From IMG/VR virus record IMGVR_UViG_3300049460_000128, positions 232,595 to 296,594 of that record: DNA of 64,000 bases. One strand, 5' to 3'. A program made the position numbers and the translations under genes. The notes below the pieces were generated by a model, which saw only the letters and a list, made by a program, of their open reading frames with translations, was not told the origin of the DNA and did not search any database. This DNA comes from a virus. Shown piece by piece: positions 10,916 through 54,316 of the stretch. Each line of letters opens with the position of its first letter. Within the stretch, counting starts at the first letter, position 1.

Positions 10916-13222
10916 TTAAGCCGCTACCGCGACTGATTTGAAGCTGTCCAGCTTAATCTCGCCGTTTTCCAACACGACATTCACAACCGAACCTTGGCCC
11001 AATTGATCGAAGATCATAGCTTTACTGAGCGGCTTCTTGACCTTGTCTTGAATCAGACGGTCAAGTGGGCGGGCGCCCATCGCCGGATCGTAGCCCTTGT
11101 CGGCCAGATAACCCAGTGCTTCGTCGCTGAAGTTCAGCGTGATGCCTTTTTGACCAACTTTGTCCACCACCACTTTGATGAACTTATTGACAATTTTCAG
11201 CATGTTGGTGCGGCCCAAAGCTTTGAAGCGCACGATTGCATCCAGACGATTGCGGAACTCTGGAGAGAACAAACGATTCACCACATCCTTGTCTTCGTCT
11301 GCGCGATCCTGCATTGCAAAACCCAACGGAGCCTTGGCTGCATCACTAGCACCCGCGTTACTGGTCATGATGACAATAACTTGATTGAATGGTACCATCT
11401 TACCAGCACTATTCGTCAGCTCGCCGTGATCAAACACTTGCAGGAACAAGTTGAAGATATCCGGATGCGCCTTTTCAACTTCGTCGAGCAGCAGCACGCA
11501 GCTTGGCGTCTTTTCAATCGCATTCACGAGCAAGCCATTGCCAGCACCGCCTTCGCCGTAACCCACGTAGCCAGGAGCCGCGCCGATCAGTTTGGCAACC
11601 GAGTGTTTTTCCATGTATTCGCTCATATCGAAGCGAACGATTGGCAATGACAGCGATTCAGCCAAGATCTTGGCGGTTTCAGTTTTACCGACACCAGTAG
11701 GGCCAGTGAACAGGTATGCGCCGGCGGTCTTGTTGTCGTCACGCAGACCAGCACGAGCAACAATCACGCCGTCATTCAGGGTTTCCAGTGCGCCATCTTG
11801 ACCCATTACACCAGCTTGCAACTTGCTTTGCAGCTTCAGCAGAACTTCGCGCTCATCGCCGTCGATGTTTTCAACTGGGATATGGGCTACTTTGCTGACT
11901 TCCACCTGGATGAGTTCCGAGGTGATGACCGTGGCTTTGTCAGCGTCCTTGACACGTTGGCGCGAACCAGCAGCATCCAGAATGTTGATAGCTTTGTCAG
12001 GCAGTTTCTGGCTTGGCATGAAACGAGCAGTCAGGTCAACTGCTTTATCCAGGGCTTCGTCCGTAAAGGTGACGCCGTGGAAAGCTTCGTACGATGCACG
12101 CAGACCACGCAGGATCAGTTTGCAATTTTCAATCGAAGGCTCGTTGACGTCCAGCTTGTGGAAGCGGCGCATCAGGGCGCGATCTTTCTCGAAATACTTG
12201 CGGTATTCTTCGTAAGTGGTCGAGCCGATGCAACGCAGTTTGCCTTTTGCCAAAGCCGGTTTCAGCAGATTGGCAACGTCCATGCCGCCCTGATTACTAC
12301 CCGCACCAGCACCCATGATCATGTGGATCTCGTCGATGAACAGGATTGGATCTTCGATGAACGACAGCGCTTGCAGGACGTGTTTCATGCGCTCTTCGAA
12401 GTCACCGCGGAACTTTGTGCCGGCGATCAGGTTGCCGATTTCCAGACTGTACACGACACTGTCGCGGATGATCGATGGGACTTTGCCCTGGACAATCATG
12501 TGGGCCAGACCTTCAGCAATGGCGGTCTTACCAACACCAGGATCGCCGACCATGATGACGTTATTGGAGCGACGACGTGCAGTGATCTGGATGATTTCTG
12601 CAACTTCGTTTTCACGGCCGATAACAGGATCGATGTCGCCGTTTGCTGCTACTTCGTTGAGGTTGATCGTGTACTTGGCCAGGAACGCGACAGCTTCGTC
12701 TTTGTTCGTGATGTCTTTTTGGCGCACTTCGCCGTCAGGACCACGCTGGACGTTTGGTTGACCTTGTGGGCTTGCTTCTTGTTCGCTGGCACCGAAGTAT
12801 TCTTTCAGACTCAGCGGATCGAGGCCGATCTTGTGCAGGAAGTGGGCGGCATGACTGTCGTCTTGTTCGGCCACACCCAGCAGCAAGTCAGCAGCGGTTG
12901 CTTGTTTGCGCTTGGTGAACATCGCATGGGCAACGACGTGTTGAACAGTGTTGCCCAACGTTTCGGTTTGGCGAACTTGCCAATTGGCAGGGGCTTGGGG
13001 AATGAATGGACCTTCCATGTAGTCGGTCAGGATACCACGCAGGTCATCTTGATCGATTTGGAAAGATTCGAAGATCGTTTTTACTTCTTGTTCTTCGATC
13101 AATGCAAACAGCAAGTGTTCTTGTGTTACGTATTCGTGGTCATACTTCCGTGCAAGCTCAAATGCTGCGCGCACGATGCGTATCGCCTCGGCGTTGTCAA
13201 ACTCCGTGGATTTATTGCTCAT
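10916..13222 (-). CDS. clpA: ClpA-type AAA+ protein unfoldase
   Basis: 768 residues, close to E. coli ClpA (758). An N-terminal Clp-N domain with two repeats covers about residues 1-145. First AAA+ module: Walker A G226-DPGVGKT-233 and Walker B LFIDE at 294-298. Second AAA+ module: Walker A G507-PTGVGKT-514 and Walker B LLLDE at 577-581, followed by the D2-small domain. There is no ClpB/Hsp104 coiled-coil M insert, so it is ClpA-like and not a disaggregase. The ClpP-docking tripeptide, IGL in ClpA, is replaced by LGF at 633-635, compatible with hydrophobic-pocket binding to ClpP. No clpP is visible in the window, so it may use host ClpP. Ribosome site TAAGGAA. Confidence 0.92.
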   Translation of the reverse strand: MSNKSTEFDNAEAIRIVRAAFELARKYDHEYVTQEHLLFALIEEQEVKTIFESFQIDQDDLRGILTDYMEGPFIPQAPANWQVRQTETLGNTVQHVVAHAMFTKRKQATAADLLLGVAEQDDSHAAHFLHKIGLDPLSLKEYFGASEQEASPQGQPNVQRGPDGEVRQKDITNKDEAVAFLAKYTINLNEVAANGDIDPVIGRENEVAEIIQITARRRSNNVIMVGDPGVGKTAIAEGLAHMIVQGKVPSIIRDSVVYSLEIGNLIAGTKFRGDFEERMKHVLQALSFIEDPILFIDEIHMIMGAGAGSNQGGMDVANLLKPALAKGKLRCIGSTTYEEYRKYFEKDRALMRRFHKLDVNEPSIENCKLILRGLRASYEAFHGVTFTDEALDKAVDLTARFMPSQKLPDKAINILDAAGSRQRVKDADKATVITSELIQVEVSKVAHIPVENIDGDEREVLLKLQSKLQAGVMGQDGALETLNDGVIVARAGLRDDNKTAGAYLFTGPTGVGKTETAKILAESLSLPIVRFDMSEYMEKHSVAKLIGAAPGYVGYGEGGAGNGLLVNAIEKTPSCVLLLDEVEKAHPDIFNLFLQVFDHGELTNSAGKMVPFNQVIVIMTSNAGASDAAKAPLGFAMQDRADEDKDVVNRLFSPEFRNRLDAIVRFKALGRTNMLKIVNKFIKVVVDKVGQKGITLNFSDEALGYLADKGYDPAMGARPLDRLIQDKVKKPLSKAMIFDQLGQGSVVNVVLENGEIKLDSFKSVAVAA

Positions 13223-13730: not shown

Positions 13731-14663
13731 TCAACTACTTAATGAGTCGCGAATGTCAACAAGTTCAAGTATCTGAGCATCAGTCAATTGCATGATATCT
13801 GGAACCACTGACACAAACTCAATAAACATGTCACCACGACGGCTAGCATGTTGGATGTTCATGCCATGATTTGGAATACGAATTTTGGAATGGGGCTGAG
13901 TGCCGGCACGAACTTGAACGAGCAGCTTCTTACCATCAATGGTCGGTACAGTAAGTTCAGTACCAATCATCAAATCCAAGACATTGATTTTTTGCAAGAA
14001 TGTAATCGTGCTATCTTCACGCAAAAACTGTTCATGCTTAGTAACATGGATGGTCACATACAAGTCGCTGATCTTCACATTGGCATGTTGCCGCCAACCA
14101 CCACCCTTACAACGAACTTGTTGACCGTCGTTAATACCAGGCGGAATGGTAACTTGCACCGTGATTGGTGTGAGATTGGACGTATTGTAGAACCGTGATG
14201 ACGCCGATGGCTTTGGAACATACGTGACATTACTGACAATGCCCGTATGTGCTTCTTCCAACGTAATATTAACGTCAACGAACTGGTCAGGATTTACCTT
14301 GTTACCCCAGTCGCTATAGTCATCTTGCGGGTAGGCTTTGCTATGACGACGCAGCAGTTCATCAATATCGTCAAAGTCGCCGCGCTTGGACTCCCAGGCT
14401 TCCTTGAAGTAGTCGGCCGAATCCCAGGAACGAGTACTGGCACGTGGTCTCGTGCTGCGATCATATGTATCACGCTTATCTGGGTCAGTCAAGACCTCAT
14501 ATGACTCTTTGATTTGTTTGAACTTATCTTCTGCGCCTGCATCCGAATTGCGATCCGGATGGTATTTCATGGCGAGCTTGCGATATGCTTTTTTGATTTC
14601 ATCCTCGGTTGCCGTTTTGGCTACACCGAGGATTTCGTAGTGATCATTTTTTTGTTGTGTCAT
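13731..14663 (-). CDS. dnaJ: DnaJ/CbpA-like J-domain co-chaperone
   Basis: 310 residues from [14 protein letters not shown]. The J domain occupies residues 6-72, with the HPD motif at 35-37 that activates DnaK ATPase, and YDRST at its end. There is no Gly/Phe-rich linker and no CxxCxGxG zinc repeats. Residues 125-300 form the two beta-barrel client-binding domains ([31 protein letters not shown]), so the layout is that of class B proteins such as CbpA. It probably directs host DnaK to phage clients. The start overlaps the o-spanin-like gene by 20 nt. Confidence 0.9.
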
Positions 14664-15030
14664 TCTGATCTTTCGGGGTGGTATCACGACGAAGGTTGAT
14701 AACACCTGTTGTATATTGGATCACAGATTTCTGCTCCAAAATATACCGTTGCATTTCGTCAAGGTTGCCAGTCAAATTTTGGAGATTGTCTTGGTCCAGT
14801 GAGTATAGCACGATGGTTGCCGTCTTGTCTGTTAGCAGCTTTTCTAATTCTGGTCTAGTCAAAATAACCCAATTAACTGGCTTCAAAACCATAGGCTGTG
14901 CGGTTGGGATTGACGCAATGTCACCAATTGGCTGTGGGACAATCACAACTTCTGGCTTCTTGGTCTCCCACAATGCACATCCACTAAGACCGAACAGCAA
15001 TATGAATATGGCTAGAATTTTACTTACCAT
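14644..15030 (-). CDS. Lipoprotein, probable outer-membrane spanin subunit
   Basis: 128 residues. [22 protein letters not shown] is a lipoprotein signal with lipobox LSGC, giving a lipidated Cys near residue 18. The mature part has a Pro-rich N-terminus ([11 protein letters not shown]) and a [22 protein letters not shown] segment also known from small phage lipoproteins. It overlaps the 3' end of an i-spanin-like gene by 11 nt, the usual Rz/Rz1-type arrangement. Two-component spanins join inner and outer membrane and complete lysis in Gram-negative hosts. Assignment rests on topology and gene order. Confidence 0.6.
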
Positions 15031-23973: not shown

Positions 23974-25071
23974 ATGTCTAAAGTATTTTTGGAAAAAGGC
24001 CCGATCTATACCGTGGCCGATCGCGAGAGCATGACTTATCTGGACAAACTGCCTAGCGGCAATTTCCTGATCAAGTTCTCCCCATTCATGGGTGGTTACT
24101 ACTTCGAGAAGATTGAATCCTTCACGATGGACCACAAAGTGTATGGCAATACCAATCGTCATGCTGATCGCATCCTGGCAACCTTCAAGGATCGTCCGGC
24201 AAGTACTGGCGTGCTGTTGAGCGGCGAAAAAGGTTCGGGCAAAACTCTGCTGGCAAAACGCATCTCCATGGATGCAGCAGCGGCAGAAGACGTGCCAACC
24301 CTGATCATCAACACCCCGCTGCACGGTGACGAGTTCAATCAGTTCATCCAAGAACTGAAACAACCAGCAATCCTGCTGTTCGACGAGTTCGAGAAAGTGT
24401 ACGATCGCGAACAACAAGACAGCATCCTGACCCTGCTGGACGGCGTTTTCGCATCCAAGAAGCTGTTCGTGATGACCTGCAACGAAGTGCATCGCATCAA
24501 CGACTACATGCGTAACCGCCCAGGTCGTATCTTCTACGCCATCAACTTCGAAGGTCTGGACGCCGCATTCATCCGTGAATACTGCGAAGACAATCTGGCT
24601 AACAAAGCCAACATCGAATCGGTGTGCCGTGCTGCTGTGATGTTCGATCGCTTCAACTTCGACATCCTGAAAGCACTCGTGGAAGAGATGAATCGCTACA
24701 ACGAGACCGCCAGCGAAGCACTGGAACTCCTGAACGCGAAACCATACGGCGACGCCCAAGTGTTCGACATTGACATGAACGTGCGTGGCACTCAGATCCC
24801 TGCCAAATACCTGTATCCTGAACAGATCCACGGTATGCCTCTGCAACACGACGAACTGGATATCGATATCAATCACTATCCAATGACCCAAGCAGAGCAG
24901 GACGACGACGACACCACGGAAAGCGCATTCGACGGCGAACAGAAGTTCAACCAGAACAACCTGGTATCGCATGACATGGTCAAAGGCGTGTACGTGTACA
25001 ACAACGGCGAATCGGTCATGACCTTGACCCGCCGCGTGAACGTGAAGAACGACTTCCGTCGCTTCCTGTAA
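23974..25071 (+). CDS. AAA+ ATPase
   Basis: 365 residues. Walker A G84-EKGSGKT-91, Walker B ILLFDEFEK at 133-141, sensor 1 in FVMTCNE and a probable arginine finger in RNRPGR. One AAA+ module covers about residues 55-240; the C-terminal 120 residues are acidic with a disordered DDDDTTESAFDGEQ stretch and end in a basic RRVNVKNDFRRFL. Related single-module ATPases occur in T4-superfamily phages without an agreed role. There is no ribosome site; the leader is CAAC/ACAAC repeats (23938-23973). Single-gene unit. Remodelling of a protein or nucleoprotein complex is likely; the target is unknown. Confidence 0.85.
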   Translation: MSKVFLEKGPIYTVADRESMTYLDKLPSGNFLIKFSPFMGGYYFEKIESFTMDHKVYGNTNRHADRILATFKDRPASTGVLLSGEKGSGKTLLAKRISMDAAAAEDVPTLIINTPLHGDEFNQFIQELKQPAILLFDEFEKVYDREQQDSILTLLDGVFASKKLFVMTCNEVHRINDYMRNRPGRIFYAINFEGLDAAFIREYCEDNLANKANIESVCRAAVMFDRFNFDILKALVEEMNRYNETASEALELLNAKPYGDAQVFDIDMNVRGTQIPAKYLYPEQIHGMPLQHDELDIDINHYPMTQAEQDDDDTTESAFDGEQKFNQNNLVSHDMVKGVYVYNNGESVMTLTRRVNVKNDFRRFL

Positions 25072-31568: not shown

Positions 31569-31637
31569 GTGAAACATGATGCAGCGGAAAACAAACAAAC
31601 GCTGCAACGACAAACAACCACACTGAAAGGAAACATC

Positions 31638-32033
31638 ATGAAAGTAGAAATCCTGGGCCTGGCACATGCAACGTTCAACGGCACCCGCGGCGAAGCTGGT
31701 GGTGCTCCTTCCAAAGACAGCATCTTCGGTCTGGCGCTGGTACAAGGCAACGTCGTGACCTTCGGTGGTCGCCGTGGCGGCACACTGCGCTTCAAGACCT
31801 ACAAGAAGCCAGAACTGGAAGCGCAGAAAGAACGATTCGCGGCCAAGCTGACCGGCAACCCATTCGGCAAAAACATCGATGCCCGTTACAGCGTCGTGAC
31901 CGACGACGTAAAAGCTGAACTGCTGGGTGCGGACTTCGACACCGAAGTAGTTGGTCGTGGCTTCTACAAAGCGATGTCGGCCAAGAAGCTGAACACCTAC
32001 AGCCGTAAGCCAAAAGCAACTGCTGCGGCCTAA
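31638..32033 (+). CDS. WGR-like small protein A
   Basis: 131 residues. One of three paralogues (with 32532-32927 and 39381-39746). Shared outline: KVEILGLAH-(4)-GTRGEAGGAPSKDSIFG, VVTFGGRRGGTLRFKTYKK, then NPFGKNIDARYSVVTDD and a basic tail. The middle F-GGRRGG-(3)-FKT stretch resembles the WGR domain core (WGR-x-G), known from PARPs and bacterial nucleic-acid-binding proteins; in paralogue C it reads FWGRRNG. GC-rich optimised codons, a long leader and AAAGGAAACATC ribosome site imply very high early expression. A DNA-binding or host-takeover role is inference. Confidence 0.62.
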   Translation: MKVEILGLAHATFNGTRGEAGGAPSKDSIFGLALVQGNVVTFGGRRGGTLRFKTYKKPELEAQKERFAAKLTGNPFGKNIDARYSVVTDDVKAELLGADFDTEVVGRGFYKAMSAKKLNTYSRKPKATAAA

Positions 32034-32531: not shown

Positions 32532-32927
32532 ATGGCAGCAAAAGTTGAACTGCAAGCACTGGGCCACTGCACTTTCAAAGGCACCCGCGGCGAATCCGGC
32601 GGCGCACCATCCAAAAACAGCCTGTGGGGCGTGGCCTTCATCGGCGGTACGCTGGTAACCTTCGGTGGCCGTGTCGGCGGCAACATGCGTTTCAAGACGC
32701 ACAAGAAAGCTGACCTGCCAGCCGTGATGGACACCTTCACCAACGGCAAGCTGACCGGCTTCCCATTCGGCAAGAAAATCGACGCCCGCTACAGCGACGT
32801 GACCGACAAGGCCGCCGAGTGGATCCCTGACCTGGAAAAAACCCTGGGCGGCCAATACTACGCCGCGGTGAAAAACCTGAAGGTCAACACTCGCGCCACC
32901 GCCAAGAAGGCCAAAGAAGCCGCGTAA
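32532..32927 (+). CDS. WGR-like small protein B
   Basis: 131 residues. Very close to paralogue A: GTRGESGGAPSKNSLWG, LVTFGGRVGGNMRFKTHKK, FPFGKKIDARYSDVTDK, ending in an Ala/Lys-rich basic tail (RATAKKAKEAA) that could contact nucleic acid or membrane. Ribosome site AAGGAGTACGAC. Own promoter and terminator; strongly optimised codons. Confidence 0.62.
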   Translation: MAAKVELQALGHCTFKGTRGESGGAPSKNSLWGVAFIGGTLVTFGGRVGGNMRFKTHKKADLPAVMDTFTNGKLTGFPFGKKIDARYSDVTDKAAEWIPDLEKTLGGQYYAAVKNLKVNTRATAKKAKEAA

Positions 32928-33010: not shown

Positions 33011-33039
33011 TTGACTATTTGCCATAATGAATGTATTCT
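33011..33039 (+). promoter_or_regulatory. Sigma70-type promoter of pspA cassette
   Basis: TTGACT (33011-33016), 17 nt, TATTCT (33034-33039). Confidence 0.68.
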
Positions 33040-33078: not shown

Positions 33079-33756
33079 ATGACCGGACTGTTGAACCGTA
33101 TTGTTACCGCCGTAACTGGCAAAGCCCACGACCTCGTCGATGCTGCTGAAGATGCAGGCAGCATCGCACGCCAAACTGTCCGCGATATCAGCAATGACAT
33201 CGACAAGGCCAATGAAGCCCGAGTGACCGCCCAAACCGAATACAACGCCCTGCAACACCACCGCGACGAAGCGCAGAAGAAAGTCGACGAATACACGGGC
33301 TACGCCAACGACGCGGTTGCAGCCGGCGACGACAGCCTGGCTACCGAAGCGCTGACCAAGCTGGACACCTTCGAAGCCAAGGTGAAAGAATTCCAGGTGC
33401 AGATGGACGCGTTCAAGCCGACTCTGGATGGCATCGCATCCAAAATCCACGACCTGGAAAAACGCCGCGACCAAATGCAAAACCAAACGACCATGATCGA
33501 AGCACGCGACGCCGTCGCCGACGCACGTATCAACGTCGCAAACGTGATGTCCGGCCTGGGCGAAGGTGCCAACGCTGGCAAGACCTTCGACCGCATCTCC
33601 GAAGCAACCTCGCGCAAGGAAGCTGAAGCAGCAGCACGCGAGCAAATCGCTGCTGAGAAGAGCCCAGAAAGCGATGCTGACAAGTTCGCTGCACTGAAGA
33701 CCAAAGTCGGCGTGGCTGACCGCCTGGCCGCTCTGAAAGCTGCACAAGGCAAGTAA
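33079..33756 (+). CDS. pspA: PspA/IM30-family membrane-stress protein
   Basis: 225 residues, near the 222 of E. coli PspA. The layout is that of PspA/Vipp1: a short amphipathic start (MTGLLNRIVTAVTGKAHDLVD) followed by a nearly continuous Ala/Glu/Lys-rich coiled coil to about residue 190, then a flexible end (AALKTKVGVADRLAALKAAQGK). These proteins are bacterial ESCRT-III relatives that polymerise on the inner membrane to repair leaks and hold proton-motive force. First gene of a three-gene unit whose next two products are membrane proteins. TAGGAG ribosome site; GC-rich codons. Confidence 0.82.
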   Translation: MTGLLNRIVTAVTGKAHDLVDAAEDAGSIARQTVRDISNDIDKANEARVTAQTEYNALQHHRDEAQKKVDEYTGYANDAVAAGDDSLATEALTKLDTFEAKVKEFQVQMDAFKPTLDGIASKIHDLEKRRDQMQNQTTMIEARDAVADARINVANVMSGLGEGANAGKTFDRISEATSRKEAEAAAREQIAAEKSPESDADKFAALKTKVGVADRLAALKAAQGK

Positions 33757-33798
33757 TCGCAACGGGCGGTTCATCGCCGCCCCATAATAAGGAAGAAC

Positions 33799-35187
33799 AT
33801 GAAAAATACCGCCCGTTTTGTTGCCGTAATCTTCACCATGGTGCTCAGCTTCAGTGCCATGGCGAAAGGTCAGTTCGATGAAGCCCAACGCGCCATGATG
33901 GACAGTCAATGGGGCCGAGCAGAACAACTGCTGAAAGCCTACCAGGAAAAAGACTACAACAACGGCAAAGGTCACTACCTGCTCGCCCAGGTATACGAAC
34001 AAACGCGCCGTTATGCGGAAGCACAAGATCAACTGGACATCGCCAAGAAAGTTGCACCAGACGGCCGCTGGGCAAAAGCCGACCAAGCTGACGCAATGGC
34101 AAATCGCCTGAGCGTTAAACTGGCAGCAAACAACCCGCAACCGCGTACTCAGCCGCGTGAACGTACTCGCGTAGCCGACGAGCCACGTGTGGCCTATACG
34201 CCGCCAGCACGTCAAACGCCAGTCGCGAACACTACCCCAGCACCAACCACTAATGTGGCGCCGCAACAAAGCAGTGGCGGTCATGGCTTCATGATCTTCC
34301 TGGTCTTCCTGTTGGTCGCTGCCGGTGGCGGTCTTGGTATCTATTACTACCTGGGACGTCGTACTGAAAAAGAAGCTGAAGAGCGTCTCGATGCTGGCCG
34401 TCGTGCCCTGCAAGCAACTGCGGTTGACATGCAAGCCCGTGTGACCGCTATCCGCGATGCACTGAAATTCCAGAACAAAGCTGGTAGTGAACTTGGCTTG
34501 TCGATCGACGGCATTGCATCCAGCCTGAACACCAACGCAAATGCTCTGCGTGACCGTGCGATCGACTCCAACACGCTGAGCCGGGCACGTTCGAATCTGG
34601 ACACTCTGGAAGCTCAACTGTCGCGTGCTGAAGGTCGTCTGGCTCGCAAAGACTTCGACGCCGCGAAAGCTGCTCCAGCACCAACTCCTGCTCCTGAACC
34701 CGTCCGTGCTGCTCCTGCACCAACCCCTGCGCCGTATCAACCAACGTCCACGACTCCACCGTCGCCGCGCTACGCTGCACCGACTCCTGCACCGGCTCCT
34801 GTCCACCAGCCGCAGGTTGTTCACCATCATCACGAAACGATCGTGCATGACAACAGTTCGTCAGACCTGCTGACCGCTGTGGTGATCGCTGACGCAATGT
34901 CGAATAGCCGTCATGAAGATGAGCGTCGTCGTGAACGTGAGCGCGAATACGAACGTGATCGTCAACGCGAGCGTGACCGCGAAGAAGAACGTCGTGCAGA
35001 ACAACGTCGCGAAGATCAACGCCAACGTGATCGTGAAGAGCGCGAAGAACAAAATCGCCGTGATCGCCAAGATGAAGAAGATCGTCGCAGCAGCCGTTCT
35101 GCTCCCGCGATGGACTTCGGCGGCGACGACGACAGCGGCAGCTCGTCGAGCAGCCCAAGCATGGATATGGGCGGCGACGACGACTGA
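33799..35187 (+). CDS. Secreted/membrane scaffold with TPR-like, TM and charged tail
   Basis: 462 residues. Signal peptide (about 1-22, cleavage after SAMA); two TPR-like helices (RAEQLLKAYQEKDYNNGKGHY, AEAQDQLDIAKKV) at 30-100; Pro/Thr linker; one membrane segment at about 162-182 (GFMIFLVFLLVAAGGGLGIY); a helical region 190-290; a Pro/Ala spacer with a VHHHHETIVHD motif; a 70-residue Arg/Glu repeat; and an Asp/Ser/Gly-rich tail (two MDxGGDDD units). The N-terminal part is thus periplasmic and the charged tail cytoplasmic, where it could meet PspA. AAGGAAGAAC ribosome site; one-base overlap with the next gene. Confidence 0.7.
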   Translation: MKNTARFVAVIFTMVLSFSAMAKGQFDEAQRAMMDSQWGRAEQLLKAYQEKDYNNGKGHYLLAQVYEQTRRYAEAQDQLDIAKKVAPDGRWAKADQADAMANRLSVKLAANNPQPRTQPRERTRVADEPRVAYTPPARQTPVANTTPAPTTNVAPQQSSGGHGFMIFLVFLLVAAGGGLGIYYYLGRRTEKEAEERLDAGRRALQATAVDMQARVTAIRDALKFQNKAGSELGLSIDGIASSLNTNANALRDRAIDSNTLSRARSNLDTLEAQLSRAEGRLARKDFDAAKAAPAPTPAPEPVRAAPAPTPAPYQPTSTTPPSPRYAAPTPAPAPVHQPQVVHHHHETIVHDNSSSDLLTAVVIADAMSNSRHEDERRREREREYERDRQRERDREEERRAEQRREDQRQRDREEREEQNRRDRQDEEDRRSSRSAPAMDFGGDDDSGSSSSSPSMDMGGDDD

Positions 35188-35660
35188 TGGAAGAACTCAA
35201 CTATAAGCGTTCGTCTTGGCACTACTGGCTTGCCACTAAACTCGGCCCCATGCAACGCTGGGACGATGCAACAGATTTCTGCACCTACGTTCGTGCAGTG
35301 GTGGTCGGTATGCTGATGTTTTGCCTGCTGTCTTGCTTGGGCCTTGGTCTGCTGTATTGTTTCGGCGATTGGCTGGGTTGGATCTCGGCAATGATCAAAG
35401 CTGGCCATATTATCTGGCTGTCCGGTAAAGATCCATCTGGTGCAATGATCTTCAATGTTGTATTGGGTGTTTGCGCCGGTATCGGCGGCTTTGGTGGTGG
35501 TATGTATTGGCGTGAACAAGCCAACCACAGAAAAGCAGAGCGTATCTGGCAAGCAAAACAGGAACTTGGTGCCAACTATGTTCCTCCGGAGCCAAGCTTC
35601 ATTGGTCATGCTTGGAAACGGTTCAAAGACAAGACCTGCTACAAAGTCAAATTCAATTGA
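35187..35660 (+). CDS. Membrane protein of pspA cassette
   Basis: 157 residues. Two membrane segments, about 35-60 (AVVVGMLMFCLLSCLGLGLLYCF) and 88-108 (MIFNVVLGVCAGIGGFGGGMYW), with a basic cytoplasmic C-terminus. ATG overlaps the previous stop by one base (TGATG). Third gene of the unit, followed by a terminator. Possibly the membrane anchor for the PspA-like protein (inference). Confidence 0.65.
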   Translation: MEELNYKRSSWHYWLATKLGPMQRWDDATDFCTYVRAVVVGMLMFCLLSCLGLGLLYCFGDWLGWISAMIKAGHIIWLSGKDPSGAMIFNVVLGVCAGIGGFGGGMYWREQANHRKAERIWQAKQELGANYVPPEPSFIGHAWKRFKDKTCYKVKFN

Positions 35661-35689
35661 AAAAAGCCCGGGACGTCCCGGGCTTTTTT
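35661..35689 (+). terminator. Rho-independent terminator
   Basis: AAAAGCCCGGGA/TCCCGGGCTTTTTT hairpin ending the pspA cassette. Confidence 0.88.
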
Positions 35690-36449: not shown

Positions 36450-36656
36450 ATGATAAACGTACTGGTAACCACCACCTATGCTCGCTCAGAAGGAGCAGCA
36501 ATATCAACCATGTTAATTCCAGCCGCCAACTTCTACGAAGCTGAGCAAATAGCTGATAAAATAAACACGGAGGCCACAAATCGTTGGCCAAGATACGGCG
36601 GATTCGGCCAGTATGCAATAATCGTCGGTGGGCATCCACCAGAGGAAACCAAATGA
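36450..36656 (+). CDS. Unknown protein, 68 aa
   Basis: [20 protein letters not shown]...; alpha/beta, with helix [16 protein letters not shown] and a final strand QYAIIVGG. Leaderless promoter. ATGA overlap with smpB, so the two are co-translated. No family recognised. Confidence 0.55.
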
Positions 36657-37102
36657 GCATTATCGATAACAAAAAAGCATTCCACGACTACACGGTCGAA
36701 GACCGATATGAAGCTGGGCTCGTCCTCGAGGGCTGGGAAGTGACAGCCATCCGTGCCGGTCGTTCGAACATCAAAGAAGCTCACGTGGTGGCTCGTGATG
36801 GCGAACTGTTCCTGTTCAATTCCCACATCAGCCCATTGCCTAACACTAGCGGCTTTACCACCTTGCAACCAACTCGTTCGCGTAAGCTGCTGCTGAACAA
36901 GAAAGAAATCAACAAGCTACTGGGTAAGGTGTCCACTGCTGGCTATACGATCGTACCCTTGAACTTCCACTTCAAGAAGGGTCGCATCAAGTGTGAGATC
37001 GGTCTGGCAAAAGGCAAGAAGCAACACGACAAACGTGCGACGCAGAAAGACCGCGATGGTAAACGTGAAGTTGCCCAAGCGATGAAACAAAACGCAAGGT
37101 AG
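36653..37102 (+). CDS. smpB: SsrA-binding protein SmpB
   Basis: 149 residues (E. coli SmpB 160). Start at [13 protein letters not shown] in an ATGA overlap. The OB-fold hallmarks are all there: [74 protein letters not shown] and DKR, followed by a basic tail. SmpB carries tmRNA into stalled ribosomes for trans-translation; the C-terminal tail enters the mRNA channel. No tmRNA gene is found in the window, so it may use host tmRNA or one elsewhere in the phage. Confidence 0.93.
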
Positions 37103-48903: not shown

Positions 48904-51090
48904 ATGATCCTGAACCAAAACAATCGTAACATTGAACGTGGTGGCATTCGTGTCGAACGCGAGGCAACCATTGTCGCAGATGCAGTGGCATTCAAAGTTC
49001 TGTCTGACATGCTGTATCCTGACAAACCACTCGCAATCATCCGCGAGCTGATGTGCAATGCGTACGATTCTCATACGGCTGCTGGTAAGCCCGATGAGCC
49101 TGTTCATATCCACTTGCCTAACGTTATGGAGCCATATCTGAGCATCCGTGACTTCGGCTTGGGTCTGAGCTTCCGTGACGCCTGCGTGCTTATGCTGACG
49201 TACTTCAAAAGTACCAAGCGTGAAGACAATAAAGTGACTGGTGCATTGGGTCTGGGTTCCAAAACACCATTCAGCTATGTGGACTCCTACACTGTGACCA
49301 CTCGCTTCAACGGTCGCAAGTTTACCTTCAATGCGTTCATCAACGAAAACGGCAATCCAGCAATGGCGCTGTTGGCACGTGAACGCACGACTGAAGGTAA
49401 TGGCCTGGAAATTATGGTGCCAGTTCGTCGCTCAGATTTCCATGTGTTTGAAGATCGTGCCCGCACTGTTCTGGAATGGTTCCGTGTGCCACCGGTAGTG
49501 AGCGGCAACAAAGATTTCAAGATCAATCGTACTGAATACGAACTGTTTGGTTCGACTTGGAAAATCGGCAAGCAACAAGGCTACTGGGGCTATAATGGCA
49601 CCGCCTATGCAATCCAGGGCAACATCGCATATCCGATCAATCCGGCGAGTATGCCAACCCTGCCCGCAGGCTATGCTGAACTGCTGCGCATGCCGATCTA
49701 CATGGAGTTTCCGATTGGTCAAATCAGCTTCACGGCTGGTCGCGACGCAATCTCGTATGACAAAGCAACGGTTGCAAACCTCATTGCTGGTCTGGATGTT
49801 GTGGTCAAGGAATTGCCAGAACAGTCGCAGGTCAAGTTTGATGCATGCAAGACTAAATGGGAAGCCCATGCTCTGTATGGCGAACTGATCAACGATAGCA
49901 TGAGTGGTTCGATCATTCGTGTTCTGAATCAGCACAAGAAGCTGTCGTTCAAATGGGGCGGTGAAGAGATCAAGACCTCGACGGTTACGATCACGATGAA
50001 GTCATATAAAGATCCAGTTATCACCGCACTGTGGGGTGGTGGTTCGCGCTCGAAGCGTTATGCCAATACTGATCCGATCAATATCACGGCTAACGCCAAG
50101 ACTGTCTTCTACATTGACGACATGTCAAAGGGCGCAGTCACCCGCATGCGTTCGTGGCGCTATGCCAACAACCCATCGTATGACCTGTATCTGCTTGGCA
50201 CTGATACGAAAGAAGTTGATGTAAAGCGTGTGGCCATTGATGCAATGCTGGAAGAACTGGGCAATCCTCCGTTTATCCTGGCTAGCACTTTGCCACCGAA
50301 AAAACGTAATCCGGCCAATCTGCTGAGCAAGAAGACCAACAAGGTTCTGACTGTTGATAGCAAGAGCTATTACAACAACAATTTCTCAGAGTCAACTGAC
50401 GACATTGATATTGAAGAGGGTGGTTACTATGTGCCAGTTTCGCGTCAAAAAGTAATCGACGACAAAGGGGTGGCATATACGAATTTCAGCGCAATGATTC
50501 GTCAAGCAGCGATCATGAAACTGATTCCAGAAGGTACTGAAATTGTGGCCGTTAACCCGTCCCAATTGAAGAAGTTTACCGATAATGAAGATTGGGTGAA
50601 TGCGGTTGATCACATCAAAGAAGCATTTATCGCTGACATGAAAACCAACAATGTCCTTGACGCAATTGCCGCTGCGACTGATTACCAGACATTGCGTTAC
50701 ACCAATGCCAACTACTACTACAATGCGCTGAATGGCGTATCGGTACTGGTGCAGAAGATGGCAAATGATCATCCACTGCGGGTGTTTGTTGATCAATGCA
50801 CGATGCAAGTTAAATCCAGCAAGGTGACTGATGTTAGCACCATGATGACCATGAGTAACTGGTTGAACTTGCAACTGGATGTTAATGGCGGCACGGCCAA
50901 GTATAAGTTCACGGCCGAATGGGATAAAATTCAAGCTCAGTATCCAATGCTGCGCCTGATCAATTATCCGGATGCCAACAACATTAAGACGGCTCTTAAA
51001 TACGTTCAGGATATGGATCGCTTGGCAGAACTGGAAAAACCAGCTGTTACGGTGGTCACTATCCAGAAAGCACCAGCGACTCAACCTTAA
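48904..51090 (+). CDS. rIIA: RIIA-like GHKL ATPase
   Basis: 728 residues (T4 RIIA is 725). N-terminal GHKL ATPase domain: N box IIRELMCNAYDSH around E48-N52, G1 box IRDFGLGL at 81-88, G2 box GALGLGSKTPF at 113-123. The long C-terminal part is specific to RIIA proteins. T4 RIIA associates with membranes and, with RIIB, protects the infected cell against the lambda Rex exclusion system. The rIIB-like gene follows after 57 nt, as in T4. No clear promoter is seen; the region after the terminator is AT-rich. Confidence 0.85.
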   Translation: MILNQNNRNIERGGIRVEREATIVADAVAFKVLSDMLYPDKPLAIIRELMCNAYDSHTAAGKPDEPVHIHLPNVMEPYLSIRDFGLGLSFRDACVLMLTYFKSTKREDNKVTGALGLGSKTPFSYVDSYTVTTRFNGRKFTFNAFINENGNPAMALLARERTTEGNGLEIMVPVRRSDFHVFEDRARTVLEWFRVPPVVSGNKDFKINRTEYELFGSTWKIGKQQGYWGYNGTAYAIQGNIAYPINPASMPTLPAGYAELLRMPIYMEFPIGQISFTAGRDAISYDKATVANLIAGLDVVVKELPEQSQVKFDACKTKWEAHALYGELINDSMSGSIIRVLNQHKKLSFKWGGEEIKTSTVTITMKSYKDPVITALWGGGSRSKRYANTDPINITANAKTVFYIDDMSKGAVTRMRSWRYANNPSYDLYLLGTDTKEVDVKRVAIDAMLEELGNPPFILASTLPPKKRNPANLLSKKTNKVLTVDSKSYYNNNFSESTDDIDIEEGGYYVPVSRQKVIDDKGVAYTNFSAMIRQAAIMKLIPEGTEIVAVNPSQLKKFTDNEDWVNAVDHIKEAFIADMKTNNVLDAIAAATDYQTLRYTNANYYYNALNGVSVLVQKMANDHPLRVFVDQCTMQVKSSKVTDVSTMMTMSNWLNLQLDVNGGTAKYKFTAEWDKIQAQYPMLRLINYPDANNIKTALKYVQDMDRLAELEKPAVTVVTIQKAPATQP

Positions 51091-51147
51091 TTAGCAATCT
51101 ACACCATTGCTCTGTACCATTTACAACAACAATAACAAGGACACATT

Positions 51148-52446
51148 ATGGCAATTACAGCACGACTGATTACTGAATCATCGATCACCCTCATCATGAA
51201 CGGTAAGCAATACATCCTTACCGAAGACAATCACCAGCATTACACTGAACTGCGCAATGCACTGAAGAAAAACGACATTCCAACCATCGAACGTCTGATT
51301 GACCTGCCAAAGCAAATCAATCACTACGGCAATGGCAAAATCACCGTGGTTGATGGCGTGGTAATGTACAACGGCGATGAGCTGCACAACAGCTTGACCC
51401 GTCGTCTGCTTCGCCAGATGGACGAAGGCTTCGAGGTAACCTCCCTGATTAACTTCCTGGAGAACCTGATGAAGAATCCATCCATGGTTGCCCGTAAGGA
51501 ACTGTACGATTGGCTGGAAGAAAACAACAACCCAATCACCGAAGACGGCTGCTTCATCGCGTTCAAGAACGTGCAGAAGAACTACATGGACCACTACACG
51601 GGTACCATCCGCAATGCGATTGGTGATACTCCGAAAATGGATCGCGCATCAGTTGATGACAATCGTCACAACACTTGCTCGGCCGGTCTGCACTTTGCAT
51701 CCGAAAGCTACCTGCCACATTACACTGGTGGCGGCGAGAACAACCGCACCATGATTCTGAAAGTGAATCCAGCTGATGTCGTGTCAATCCCGGTTGACTA
51801 CAACCACGCGAAAGGTCGTTGCTGGACTTATGAAGTAATCGGCGAACTGGACGATGATGGCTTCCAGAAGTTCTACAAAACTGCGGTTCACGGTGCAACT
51901 CCAAATGCCCGCGAAGATGACCTGGTGGACGAGGTAGAAGAAGAAGTCGTGGCAGCACCAGTCAATGCGGCTGTAACGCCTGATCGTGTGTACATTGTTC
52001 GCAGCTACAACGACTATACCAATGGGGCCAACGTCACCAAGGTCGATGCTGAAGTTTACGAAGAAGGCAAGCGTGTAACTCTGGCTGCTGCCCGTAGCCT
52101 CGCCGAGTCCGTGATGGCACAAGAAGATGTTGATCGCGTGCGTATCATCGACTCGATCACTCAGGACACCATCCTGGTCTTCGAATATGAAGAAGTGACG
52201 GATGAAGTTGTTGAAGTTGCTGAAGCACCAAAAGCTGCTTGGCCTATGCCAACGGCTAAGCCAGCAGTGGCCCCAGCGAAAGCACCAGTCAAGGCAGCAA
52301 ATCCATTCGAAGGTCTGACCTTCACCAAGACGCAAGTGTGCGCGATCCTGGGCGTGGATATGGTTACTCTGGATGAAATGCTTGAAGATGGTACCAAAGT
52401 TGAGCGTGTTGTCCGTGGCGGCAAAGGCTTCGTAGTCATCAAGTAA
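51148..52446 (+). CDS. rIIB: RIIB-like protein
   Basis: 432 residues, longer than T4 RIIB (312). The central block is characteristic of RIIB-like proteins: GCFIAFKNVQKNYMDHYTG, MDRASVDDNRHNTCSAGLHF and YLPHY (about residues 130-195). The C-terminal 170 residues add an acidic linker, an LAAARSLAESVMAQEDVDRVRI segment and a Pro/Ala linker, then a final HTH-like FTKTQVCAILGVDMVTLDEML domain. Leader has ACAACAACAATAACAAGGAC. Works with RIIA in superinfection or exclusion control; the mechanism is unknown. Confidence 0.82.
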   Translation: MAITARLITESSITLIMNGKQYILTEDNHQHYTELRNALKKNDIPTIERLIDLPKQINHYGNGKITVVDGVVMYNGDELHNSLTRRLLRQMDEGFEVTSLINFLENLMKNPSMVARKELYDWLEENNNPITEDGCFIAFKNVQKNYMDHYTGTIRNAIGDTPKMDRASVDDNRHNTCSAGLHFASESYLPHYTGGGENNRTMILKVNPADVVSIPVDYNHAKGRCWTYEVIGELDDDGFQKFYKTAVHGATPNAREDDLVDEVEEEVVAAPVNAAVTPDRVYIVRSYNDYTNGANVTKVDAEVYEEGKRVTLAAARSLAESVMAQEDVDRVRIIDSITQDTILVFEYEEVTDEVVEVAEAPKAAWPMPTAKPAVAPAKAPVKAANPFEGLTFTKTQVCAILGVDMVTLDEMLEDGTKVERVVRGGKGFVVIK

Positions 52447-52582: not shown

Positions 52583-54316
52583 ATGAACGTGTTTTCGGAT
52601 AATCTGGCTGCACCATTCGATATGGCTGATGTGGTGGTCGCATACCTGAATCAACTGGAAGTTGAATACATCTTCGGAGTTCCAGGCGGTGCCATAGAAC
52701 CCCTCTACAATGCAATAGCTCGGCAAGAAAAACGCGGTGGCGTTCGCCACGTTCTCGCCCGCCACGAAACTGGGGCGGCATTCATGGCAGAAGGCTATGC
52801 GCGTGAAACTGGCAAACTGGGCGTCTGCTGTGCAACCTCCGGACCTGGTGTTACCAACATGATTACTGGTGTCGCCAATGCCAATGCCAACCGTGTGCCC
52901 GTGTTGGCAATCACCGGCCAACCATCCCTGAAGTCGTTCGGTCGTAACGCACTTCAAGAATCGTCCTGCACTGGCATCGATGTTGTAGCAATGATGAGTC
53001 ATTGCACGCAATACAGTACGTTGATATCGCACCCTGCTCAGATCGAAAACAAGTTCATCTCCGCAGTAAGTCATTCGTTGCGTGGGGCGCGTGGTGCGTC
53101 GCATCTGTCAGTGCCCAACGACATCTTCCGCATGCCGAGCGAACATGGTTCGCCACTCTACAAGCTGGAACGCGAACGTATGGTCAGTCACCACTACGCA
53201 CCCAGTGATGTGATTAATCTGTTCCACACCATCACCAACAGTCAGAATCCAGTCGTGTTGGTGGGCGCTCATGCGGGGCCAGCCATCCCCGAGATTATGA
53301 GTTTCGTCAAGGAGAACAATATTCCCTTCGTATCGACGCCTGACGGCAAAGGGTTTGTTGATATCAACAGTCCATTGTATTGCGGGGTGGTTGGCTTCAG
53401 CGGTCATCAATCGGCAATGGAAACCGTGAATGACCCAGCGGTAGACCTCCTGATTGCGATCGGGGCCACCATTGGTGAGTTGAATACCGGTGGCTGGTCA
53501 GCTGGTATCCTGAATGAGCACCTGGTCATCATCGACGAATGTGATCAAAATCTCATGCGGGCGCCAATGGCAAAGCTCCAGATGCATGGCAATACGTCAG
53601 CAATCATGCGTGGCTTGAATACCATGATCAACCTCATGCCCATGCGCTTCCGGGGCAATACGCATGGGCCCGTGACTATTACCGACTTCGTATGTTCGGT
53701 AAGCGACGATACACCAATCAAGCCCCAACGTTTGATGCGTGAGTTGAGCAGTATGTTCCCAAGCAACACTCGCTTTTTTGCCGATAATGGCAACAGCTTC
53801 TCGTGGGCCATCCATCATCTCAATCCAGGAATAATGACCTCCAATCATTTGAGCCGTGGCTGGTTGCATGTCACCACCGAGTTTGCTTCGATGGGTTGGG
53901 CAATCGGCACTTCAGTTGGGGCAGCAATGGCCAATCCAGAGTCCCCGGTCGTCTGCATTACTGGCGATGGTTCGATGCTGATGAGTGGTCAAGAGTTGTC
54001 CACTGCGGTAGCGGAACGCATCCCGATGATCTTCGTGGTGTTAAATGACAGCACCTTGGGGATGGTATATCATGGGCAGAAGATGGGCGGTGCTGAACCC
54101 ATAGCAACTGACATCCCGGTAACGAACTTTGCCGCGATCGCACAAGCAATGGGCGCGCAAAGCTTTGTGATTAACTCGGCCGTCGACCTGGAAGCTCTGA
54201 ATATCAAGGCGTTGTTGGCGCACAATGGCCCAACATTGCTGGATGTGCGGATCGACCGTGAAGAGGTTCCGCCCATGAAAAGCCGGGTGGCGGTATTGAC
54301 TGATACAGTTGAATAA
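52583..54316 (+). CDS. Thiamine-diphosphate enzyme, acetolactate-synthase-like
   Basis: 577 residues, full length for the family (about 550-590). PYR domain with the catalytic Glu at E62 (RHETGAAFMAEGYAR), central domain with an IAIGATIGE motif, and PP domain with the metal/ThDP motif G461-DG...N488 (GDGSMLMSGQEL, then VVLND). The closest named relative by eye is the acetolactate synthase large subunit (ATSGPGVTNMITG), but sulfoacetaldehyde acetyltransferase, oxalyl-CoA decarboxylase or a benzoylformate-type decarboxylase are possible. No small regulatory subunit nearby. Isolated unit with its own operator-bearing promoter and terminator; CAGGAGCTGGAC ribosome site. An auxiliary metabolic gene. 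Confidence 0.85.
   Translation: MNVFSDNLAAPFDMADVVVAYLNQLEVEYIFGVPGGAIEPLYNAIARQEKRGGVRHVLARHETGAAFMAEGYARETGKLGVCCATSGPGVTNMITGVANANANRVPVLAITGQPSLKSFGRNALQESSCTGIDVVAMMSHCTQYSTLISHPAQIENKFISAVSHSLRGARGASHLSVPNDIFRMPSEHGSPLYKLERERMVSHHYAPSDVINLFHTITNSQNPVVLVGAHAGPAIPEIMSFVKENNIPFVSTPDGKGFVDINSPLYCGVVGFSGHQSAMETVNDPAVDLLIAIGATIGELNTGGWSAGILNEHLVIIDECDQNLMRAPMAKLQMHGNTSAIMRGLNTMINLMPMRFRGNTHGPVTITDFVCSVSDDTPIKPQRLMRELSSMFPSNTRFFADNGNSFSWAIHHLNPGIMTSNHLSRGWLHVTTEFASMGWAIGTSVGAAMANPESPVVCITGDGSMLMSGQELSTAVAERIPMIFVVLNDSTLGMVYHGQKMGGAEPIATDIPVTNFAAIAQAMGAQSFVINSAVDLEALNIKALLAHNGPTLLDVRIDREEVPPMKSRVAVLTDTVE

Follow-up and report, generated by a model that had tools for sequence, protein, structure and literature searches.

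A PspA-family gene of a jumbo phage and its TPR membrane-protein neighbor form a pair shared with Burkholderiaceae

Psp stands for phage shock protein, and a phage that itself encodes a PspA-family protein raises the question of what the virus does with it and which membrane protein it works with. We analyzed such a locus within a window of 64,000 nucleotides, bases 232595-296594 and thus the terminal part of a 296,594-base (296.6 kb) virus record. A sequence-only reading of the window had described a three-gene membrane cassette with its own promoter and terminator, in which the protein of the second gene was to serve as a dedicated membrane receptor for PspA.

Results

The phage and its cassette

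The TerL of the window phage is 62% identical to that of Sinorhizobium phage Phosso, 55% to that of Agrobacterium phage Atu_ph07, and 48% to that of the PA5oct group. The tail sheath, DNA polymerase, and rIIA/rIIB proteins have their matches in phage families characteristic of T4-type myoviruses, and by these sequence matches the record is a bacteria-infecting jumbo phage of the T4 type. Its TerL kin are T4-type jumbo phages as well, none of which, to our knowledge, is nucleus-forming. Many small and probably early genes surround the cassette, which was not found in the TerL-related phage isolates and is therefore accessory. Among the 50,697 records in the collection, no phage isolate has a close PspA. 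Single window proteins, used as queries against viral contigs, retrieved no close relatives; alignments were needed instead. The cassette occupies 33079-35660 on the + strand, where all three ORFs were confirmed in the order originally proposed. The features referred to below are as follows.

23974..25071, + strand: AAA+ ATPase of family phrog_2376, 8 kb from the cassette, 50% identical to a gene of viral contig L054
32944..32976, + strand: terminator of the upstream gene, just 5′ of the cassette (-21.1 kcal/mol, z -5.96)
33011..33039, + strand: candidate weak sigma70-like promoter, TTGACT-17-TATTCT (9/12 match)
33079..33756, + strand: PspA/IM30-family (bacterial ESCRT-III) protein, 225 aa, with a good AGGAG site (PF04012, PDB sequence matches, AlphaFold2, Foldseek)
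33799..35187, + strand: P2, 462 aa, predicted to have a signal peptide, a TPR domain, a single TM span, and, on the cytoplasmic side, a coiled segment and a disordered tail rich in Arg and Glu (TPR_19 8e-5, hydropathy, homology and synteny)
35187..35660, + strand: P3, 157 aa, membrane protein with two spans, family phrog_944 (PHROG 2.4e-18)
35660..35689, + strand: intrinsic terminator 3′ of P3 (-22.2 kcal/mol, z -5.45, T run)

The PspA and P2 genes are 42 bases apart, as had been described; the supposed one-base gap between P2 and P3 is actually a one-base overlap of the P2 stop with the P3 start (TGATG). Strong hairpin terminators, including the one claimed after P3, flank the cassette on both sides and thus make it a closed transcription unit of its own. 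The promoter is less secure, because chance alone would give about 1.3 sigma70-like 9/12 matches in the 3 kb that were scanned, and the match by itself is not strong evidence. The phage PspA gene has a GC3 of 0.67, and the genome median is 0.49. We dropped recent capture as an explanation of this unusual GC, since the neighboring vWA, AAA, and WGR-like genes are equally high in GC3, and the value is therefore not diagnostic.

The window holds several other genes of note. Two paralogues directly 5′ of the cassette (31626-32033 and 32532-32927) share a WGR-like stretch, VTFGGR.GG, and have no convincing Pfam match. Between 20.7 and 38.4 kb, 13 or more small ORFs of 70-126 aa on the + strand share a C-terminal acidic-then-hydrophobic motif, ..EDDA..F.L.W, which occurs in 1 of 66 ORFs on the opposite strand; the set resembles a large divergent paralogue array, and the one member tested had no Pfam match. 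At 36653-37102 the phage encodes full-length SmpB, which partners tmRNA in ribosome rescue (PF01668, 3e-55; above the NCBIfam SmpB cut-off), and ARAGORN found two tRNA-Met genes and no tmRNA in the window. A ClpA-like AAA+ unfoldase (10919-13222, - strand) and a DnaJ-like protein (13734-14705, - strand) are both phage-encoded. The gene at 52583-54313 specifies a thiamine-pyrophosphate enzyme resembling acetolactate synthase that scores below the cut-offs of its best listed NCBIfam matches; the gene is a possible auxiliary metabolic gene.

Gene 1 encodes a divergent PspA

By sequence and by predicted fold, the first gene encodes a genuine protein of the PspA/IM30 (bacterial ESCRT-III) family, in agreement with the sequence-only reading. 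Residues 3-225 align with positions 1-220 of Pfam model PF04012 (105.9 bits against a cut-off of 33.9, E 3e-30), and the best solved relatives in a PDB sequence search are Vipp1/PspA (3e-12). An AlphaFold2 model, built from an alignment of four relatives (pLDDT 71.6), places helices at residues 2-81, 85-159, 166-191, and 212-223. This predicted fold is that of ESCRT-III, a long helical hairpin plus later helices in the ESCRT-III helical order. The structural match whose absence was to refute the sequence-only reading was also obtained: the top 13 Foldseek matches in the PDB are all Vipp1/PspA with probability 1.00, and their modest query-normalized TM-scores of 0.46-0.57 fit a shallow alignment and helices that flex or hinge. 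The N-terminal 18-mer is amphipathic, with a hydrophobic moment of 0.48 (p = 0.02 versus shuffles; p = 0.0008-0.044 in relatives), and the AlphaFold2 model is of low confidence in this part, the helix alpha0. In NCBIfam, the protein scores 50.9 bits against the E. coli-type PspA equivalog TIGR02977 (cut-off 242.95) and 48.4 bits against the LiaH equivalog (cut-off 380). It falls so far below both cut-offs that we regard it as a divergent family member.

P2 is laid out as a membrane anchor with a cytoplasmic tail

The earlier description of the second gene product as secreted, TPR-like, and single-span holds. Hydropathy identifies a signal peptide at residues 4-22, ending in AMA, and one span at 163-181 that is followed by RR, which places the tail in the cytoplasm. 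The protein is predicted to consist of a signal peptide that looks cleavable, a TPR domain in the periplasm, a single span with basic residues at its inner face, then a helical segment and a tail that is disordered. Pfam yields weak TPR models alone (TPR_19, 8e-5), and NCBIfam has no name for P2, whose family is unnamed. The tail is long and Arg/Glu-rich, as claimed, with 25 K+R and 28 D+E among the 79 residues at 355-433. We rejected this tail as a conserved feature: bacterial P2 proteins carry a short ERD..RRR segment at the position, and the long stretch is particular to the window phage. Common to the P2 proteins compared are the signal peptide, one TM span, and the basic residues that follow it.

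A bacterial counterpart of the pair

A plasmid search pointed to Paraburkholderia fungorum, where the gene after PspA codes for a TPR protein that aligns with phage P2 at 4e-9. Among 200 Burkholderiaceae genomes surveyed, 106 contain the P2 family (E <= 1e-14), mostly over the full profile, and PspA lies directly upstream of P2 on the same strand in all 30 of the Burkholderiaceae loci retrieved. In a 399-genome phylum sample, strong P2 matches were confined to six genomes, all of them also in the Burkholderiaceae sample. Neither PspB nor PspC was detectable in 20/20 Burkholderiaceae genomes with the pair, in the same searches that detected the E. coli positive control. The paired PspA is the sole PspA in 19 of these 20; P. 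fungorum has two copies, each paired. Together with the same pairing in other phages (below), this conservation in bacteria without detectable PspB/PspC makes P2 very likely, as judged from gene neighborhoods, to be the membrane partner of PspA, and it is the best candidate for that partner in Burkholderiaceae. The PspA-P2 pair is a module of bacteria that phages share or have taken over, rather than one that they invented.

The case for homology between phage and bacterial P2 comes mostly from the TPR part, with scores no better than those of orphan TPR-TM-tail proteins. Shared tail motifs (an LLTG helix and DFG/DMG acidic repeats) are significant in viral contig L093, marginal in the window (8 of 300 shuffles were as good), and not significant in contigs L054 and L019. 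As proof of common descent, these motifs thus have the support of shuffling in part.

The pair recurs in viral contigs

Adjacent PspA and P2 genes occur in four viral contigs, in two gene orders. The window and L019, a 178-kb record with a TerL related to that of the window, have the order PspA-P2, with 27 bases between the genes in L019; L054 and L093 have P2-PspA. Recurrence in four viral contigs and in 30/30 bacterial loci excludes chance as the source of the pairing. Two further virus-labeled contigs with PspA were left out of this count, as their proteins resemble ordinary bacterial PspA: in L017 the gene sits among tgt-, yajC-, and helicase-like genes, and in L020 it lies beside a dienelactone-hydrolase-like gene, before phage genes. 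In a PspA tree with L093 left out, the phage proteins form long branches outside the sampled Burkholderiaceae clade, to whose PspAs they are about 28-40% identical, and there are two label changes. The tree is compatible with one or with several captures of PspA by phages, as it neither supports nor excludes a single phage clade. In the L019 record (G002), the large terminase gene at 133941-138231 appears to be in three pieces with two intervening stretches of ~1.3-1.4 kb, which suggests introns or similar elements.

P3 belongs to a phage membrane family. Hydropathy gives the two spans that had been proposed (38-56 and 85-103), and the protein passes the phrog_944 profile at 2.4e-18 over positions 88-227 of 235, with no Pfam match. 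In both L054 and L093, a homologue is found no more than about 4 kb from PspA. A block that recurs in L054, L093, and contig L109 runs P3, macro domain, AAA+, P2 and has a gene for a MoxR-like ATPase after it; PspA is part of the block in L054 and L093 and absent from that of L109. The phrog_2376 AAA+ homologue adjoins PspA or P2 in these three contigs. The same AAA+ family is present in 368 phage records without detectable PspA, and none was found across the 178-kb L019 record. Because the family is this common in phages without detectable PspA, we rejected it as a dedicated Vps4 for PspA. It is probably generic, and a partnership of the window AAA+ with the cassette is possible but unproven.

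P2 relatives also occur apart from PspA. Orphan TPR-TM-tail proteins are encoded in other Gammaproteobacteria (L025, 1471-2337; L028, 1483-2292), with no PspA found within roughly 1.5 kb on each side, and a P2-like gene in L091 likewise has no PspA nearby. The claim of a dedicated membrane receptor therefore survives in half: the gene neighborhoods argue for the partnership, and the relatives without PspA in L025, L028, L091, and L109 make "dedicated" too strong.

Discussion

Comparison with known systems

The PspF-PspABCDE system of E. coli likewise has a PF04012 PspA with an N-terminal amphipathic helix and a membrane partner encoded alongside. The phage cassette differs in lacking PspB/PspC, in its TPR/one-TM/tail partner, and in a PspA that reaches 51 bits against an equivalog cut-off of 243. 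In Bacillus subtilis PspA-YdjGHI and LiaIH, a PspA homologue is also accompanied by operon-encoded membrane proteins, of which YdjG/H/I recruit PspA (PMC8581546); the partner layout is different, and the phage cassette is without an SPFH protein. Nearest is the Burkholderiaceae pair, exemplified by P. fungorum loci L015 and L021, which has the same two gene families, order, and domain layout. Its proteins are ~25-28% identical to the phage ones, and its P2 is shorter, with a Gly/Asp-rich tail that lacks the Arg/Glu expansion. P3 is not part of the bacterial pair, and phrog_944 was absent from 14 control genomes.

Another mobile PspA cassette is found on the conjugative plasmids Citrobacter pK1219-2 and Serratia pJSRIV001_1, where PspA is followed by small membrane proteins that, unlike P2, have neither TPR nor signal peptide. 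These loci (L014, 5995-7699; L016, 5992-7686) encode PspA, a one-TM protein with a cytoplasmic coil (a PspB-like layout), and a multi-TM protein. A phage pspA-like gene has been reported from the huge Jug phages, predicted to infect Bacteroides/Phocaeicola, where it lies beside terD; the accessible portion of that report mentions no P2-type partner (PMC12363816). In the main texts of two large Psp surveys (PMC11237479, PMC9239133) we found no mention of Burkholderiales or of a P2-like partner, and TPR comes up once, for another protein that carries a 6TM domain. In the literature searched, we found no description of a phage PspA with a defined membrane partner, nor of P2 as a PspB/PspC-independent partner across Burkholderiaceae. 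Phages with PspA plus its own membrane partner thus seem essentially undescribed.

Possible functions of the phage pair

We consider it rather likely that the cassette is a phage-borne membrane maintenance module of the Psp type. The phage PspA gene adjoins P2, the standing neighbor of PspA in Burkholderia-type bacteria, and for this reason the virus probably carries its own equipment to keep the inner membrane of the host sealed. PspA would be made in the cytoplasm, and its amphipathic N-terminal helix would insert into the stressed inner membrane, where the protein would polymerize; in PspA, helix alpha0 remodels membranes, and PspA/Vipp1 polymers tubulate them (PMC12358876). P2 would span the inner membrane, exposing its TPR domain to the periplasm and extending its tail into the cytoplasm, the site of PspA assembly; such a layout suits an anchor or sensor in the role of PspB/PspC in E. 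coli or YdjG/H/I in Bacillus. P3 may be an accessory phage membrane protein. The binding of PspA by P2, its recruitment to the membrane, and the benefit to the phage are the steps that we infer. By that inference, the most likely function is to hold PspA at the inner membrane and so keep the proton-motive force during infection, while phage membrane proteins and membrane-targeting host defenses damage the membrane.

A narrower purpose would be counter-defense. T4 rII is classically linked to resisting the membrane-depolarizing RexAB system, and the phage PspA system might in like manner neutralize membrane-depolarizing abortive-infection effectors. The presence of rIIA and rIIB in the same window (48904-52443) is in keeping with this, as are the accessory status of the cassette and its setting among many small, probably early, genes. 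However, comparison with defense and counter-defense families returned weak coiled-coil noise alone, so that membership of the cassette in a defense system was rejected; no tie to any particular defense was found, and the idea is hard to tell from general membrane maintenance. We regard it as unlikely. That PspA rods or vesicles serve the phage directly, in virion assembly, lysis timing, or a compartment, is highly improbable. ESCRT-III is driven by AAA+ ATPases in other systems, and macro-domain and AAA+ genes share a block with PspA in L054 and L093; the tubulating activity of PspA/Vipp1 polymers is also apt (PMC12358876). But the AAA+ family is generic, lies 8 kb off in the window, and is missing from the L019 record, and P2 resembles a bacterial housekeeping partner rather than a phage-specific device. 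No finding spoke for the other roles raised in the sequence-only reading, namely a block on early lysis or on the entry of rival phages, or support of an intracellular compartment.

Many jumbo phage genes mimic host genes, and the phage PspA and P2 might mimic or poison the host pair, with a dampened stress response or mixed polymers as the outcome. The same pair is indeed the PspA system of Burkholderiaceae, but the divergence of the phage PspAs from the sampled Burkholderiaceae clade speaks against such interference, to which we give very little credence. Returning to the favored reading of membrane maintenance, we tentatively extend it, at less than even confidence, to two linked proposals: that P2 is an undescribed receptor that replaces PspB/PspC in Burkholderiaceae, and that jumbo phages have repeatedly recruited the whole pair as portable ESCRT-III repair against membrane-depolarizing defenses.

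The idea of a phage PspA-P2 pair and that of a Burkholderiaceae partner can both be tested with two genes. P2 offers a concrete candidate for what ties PspA to the membrane in a large family, comprising Burkholderia, Paraburkholderia, and their kin, in which PspB and PspC were not found.
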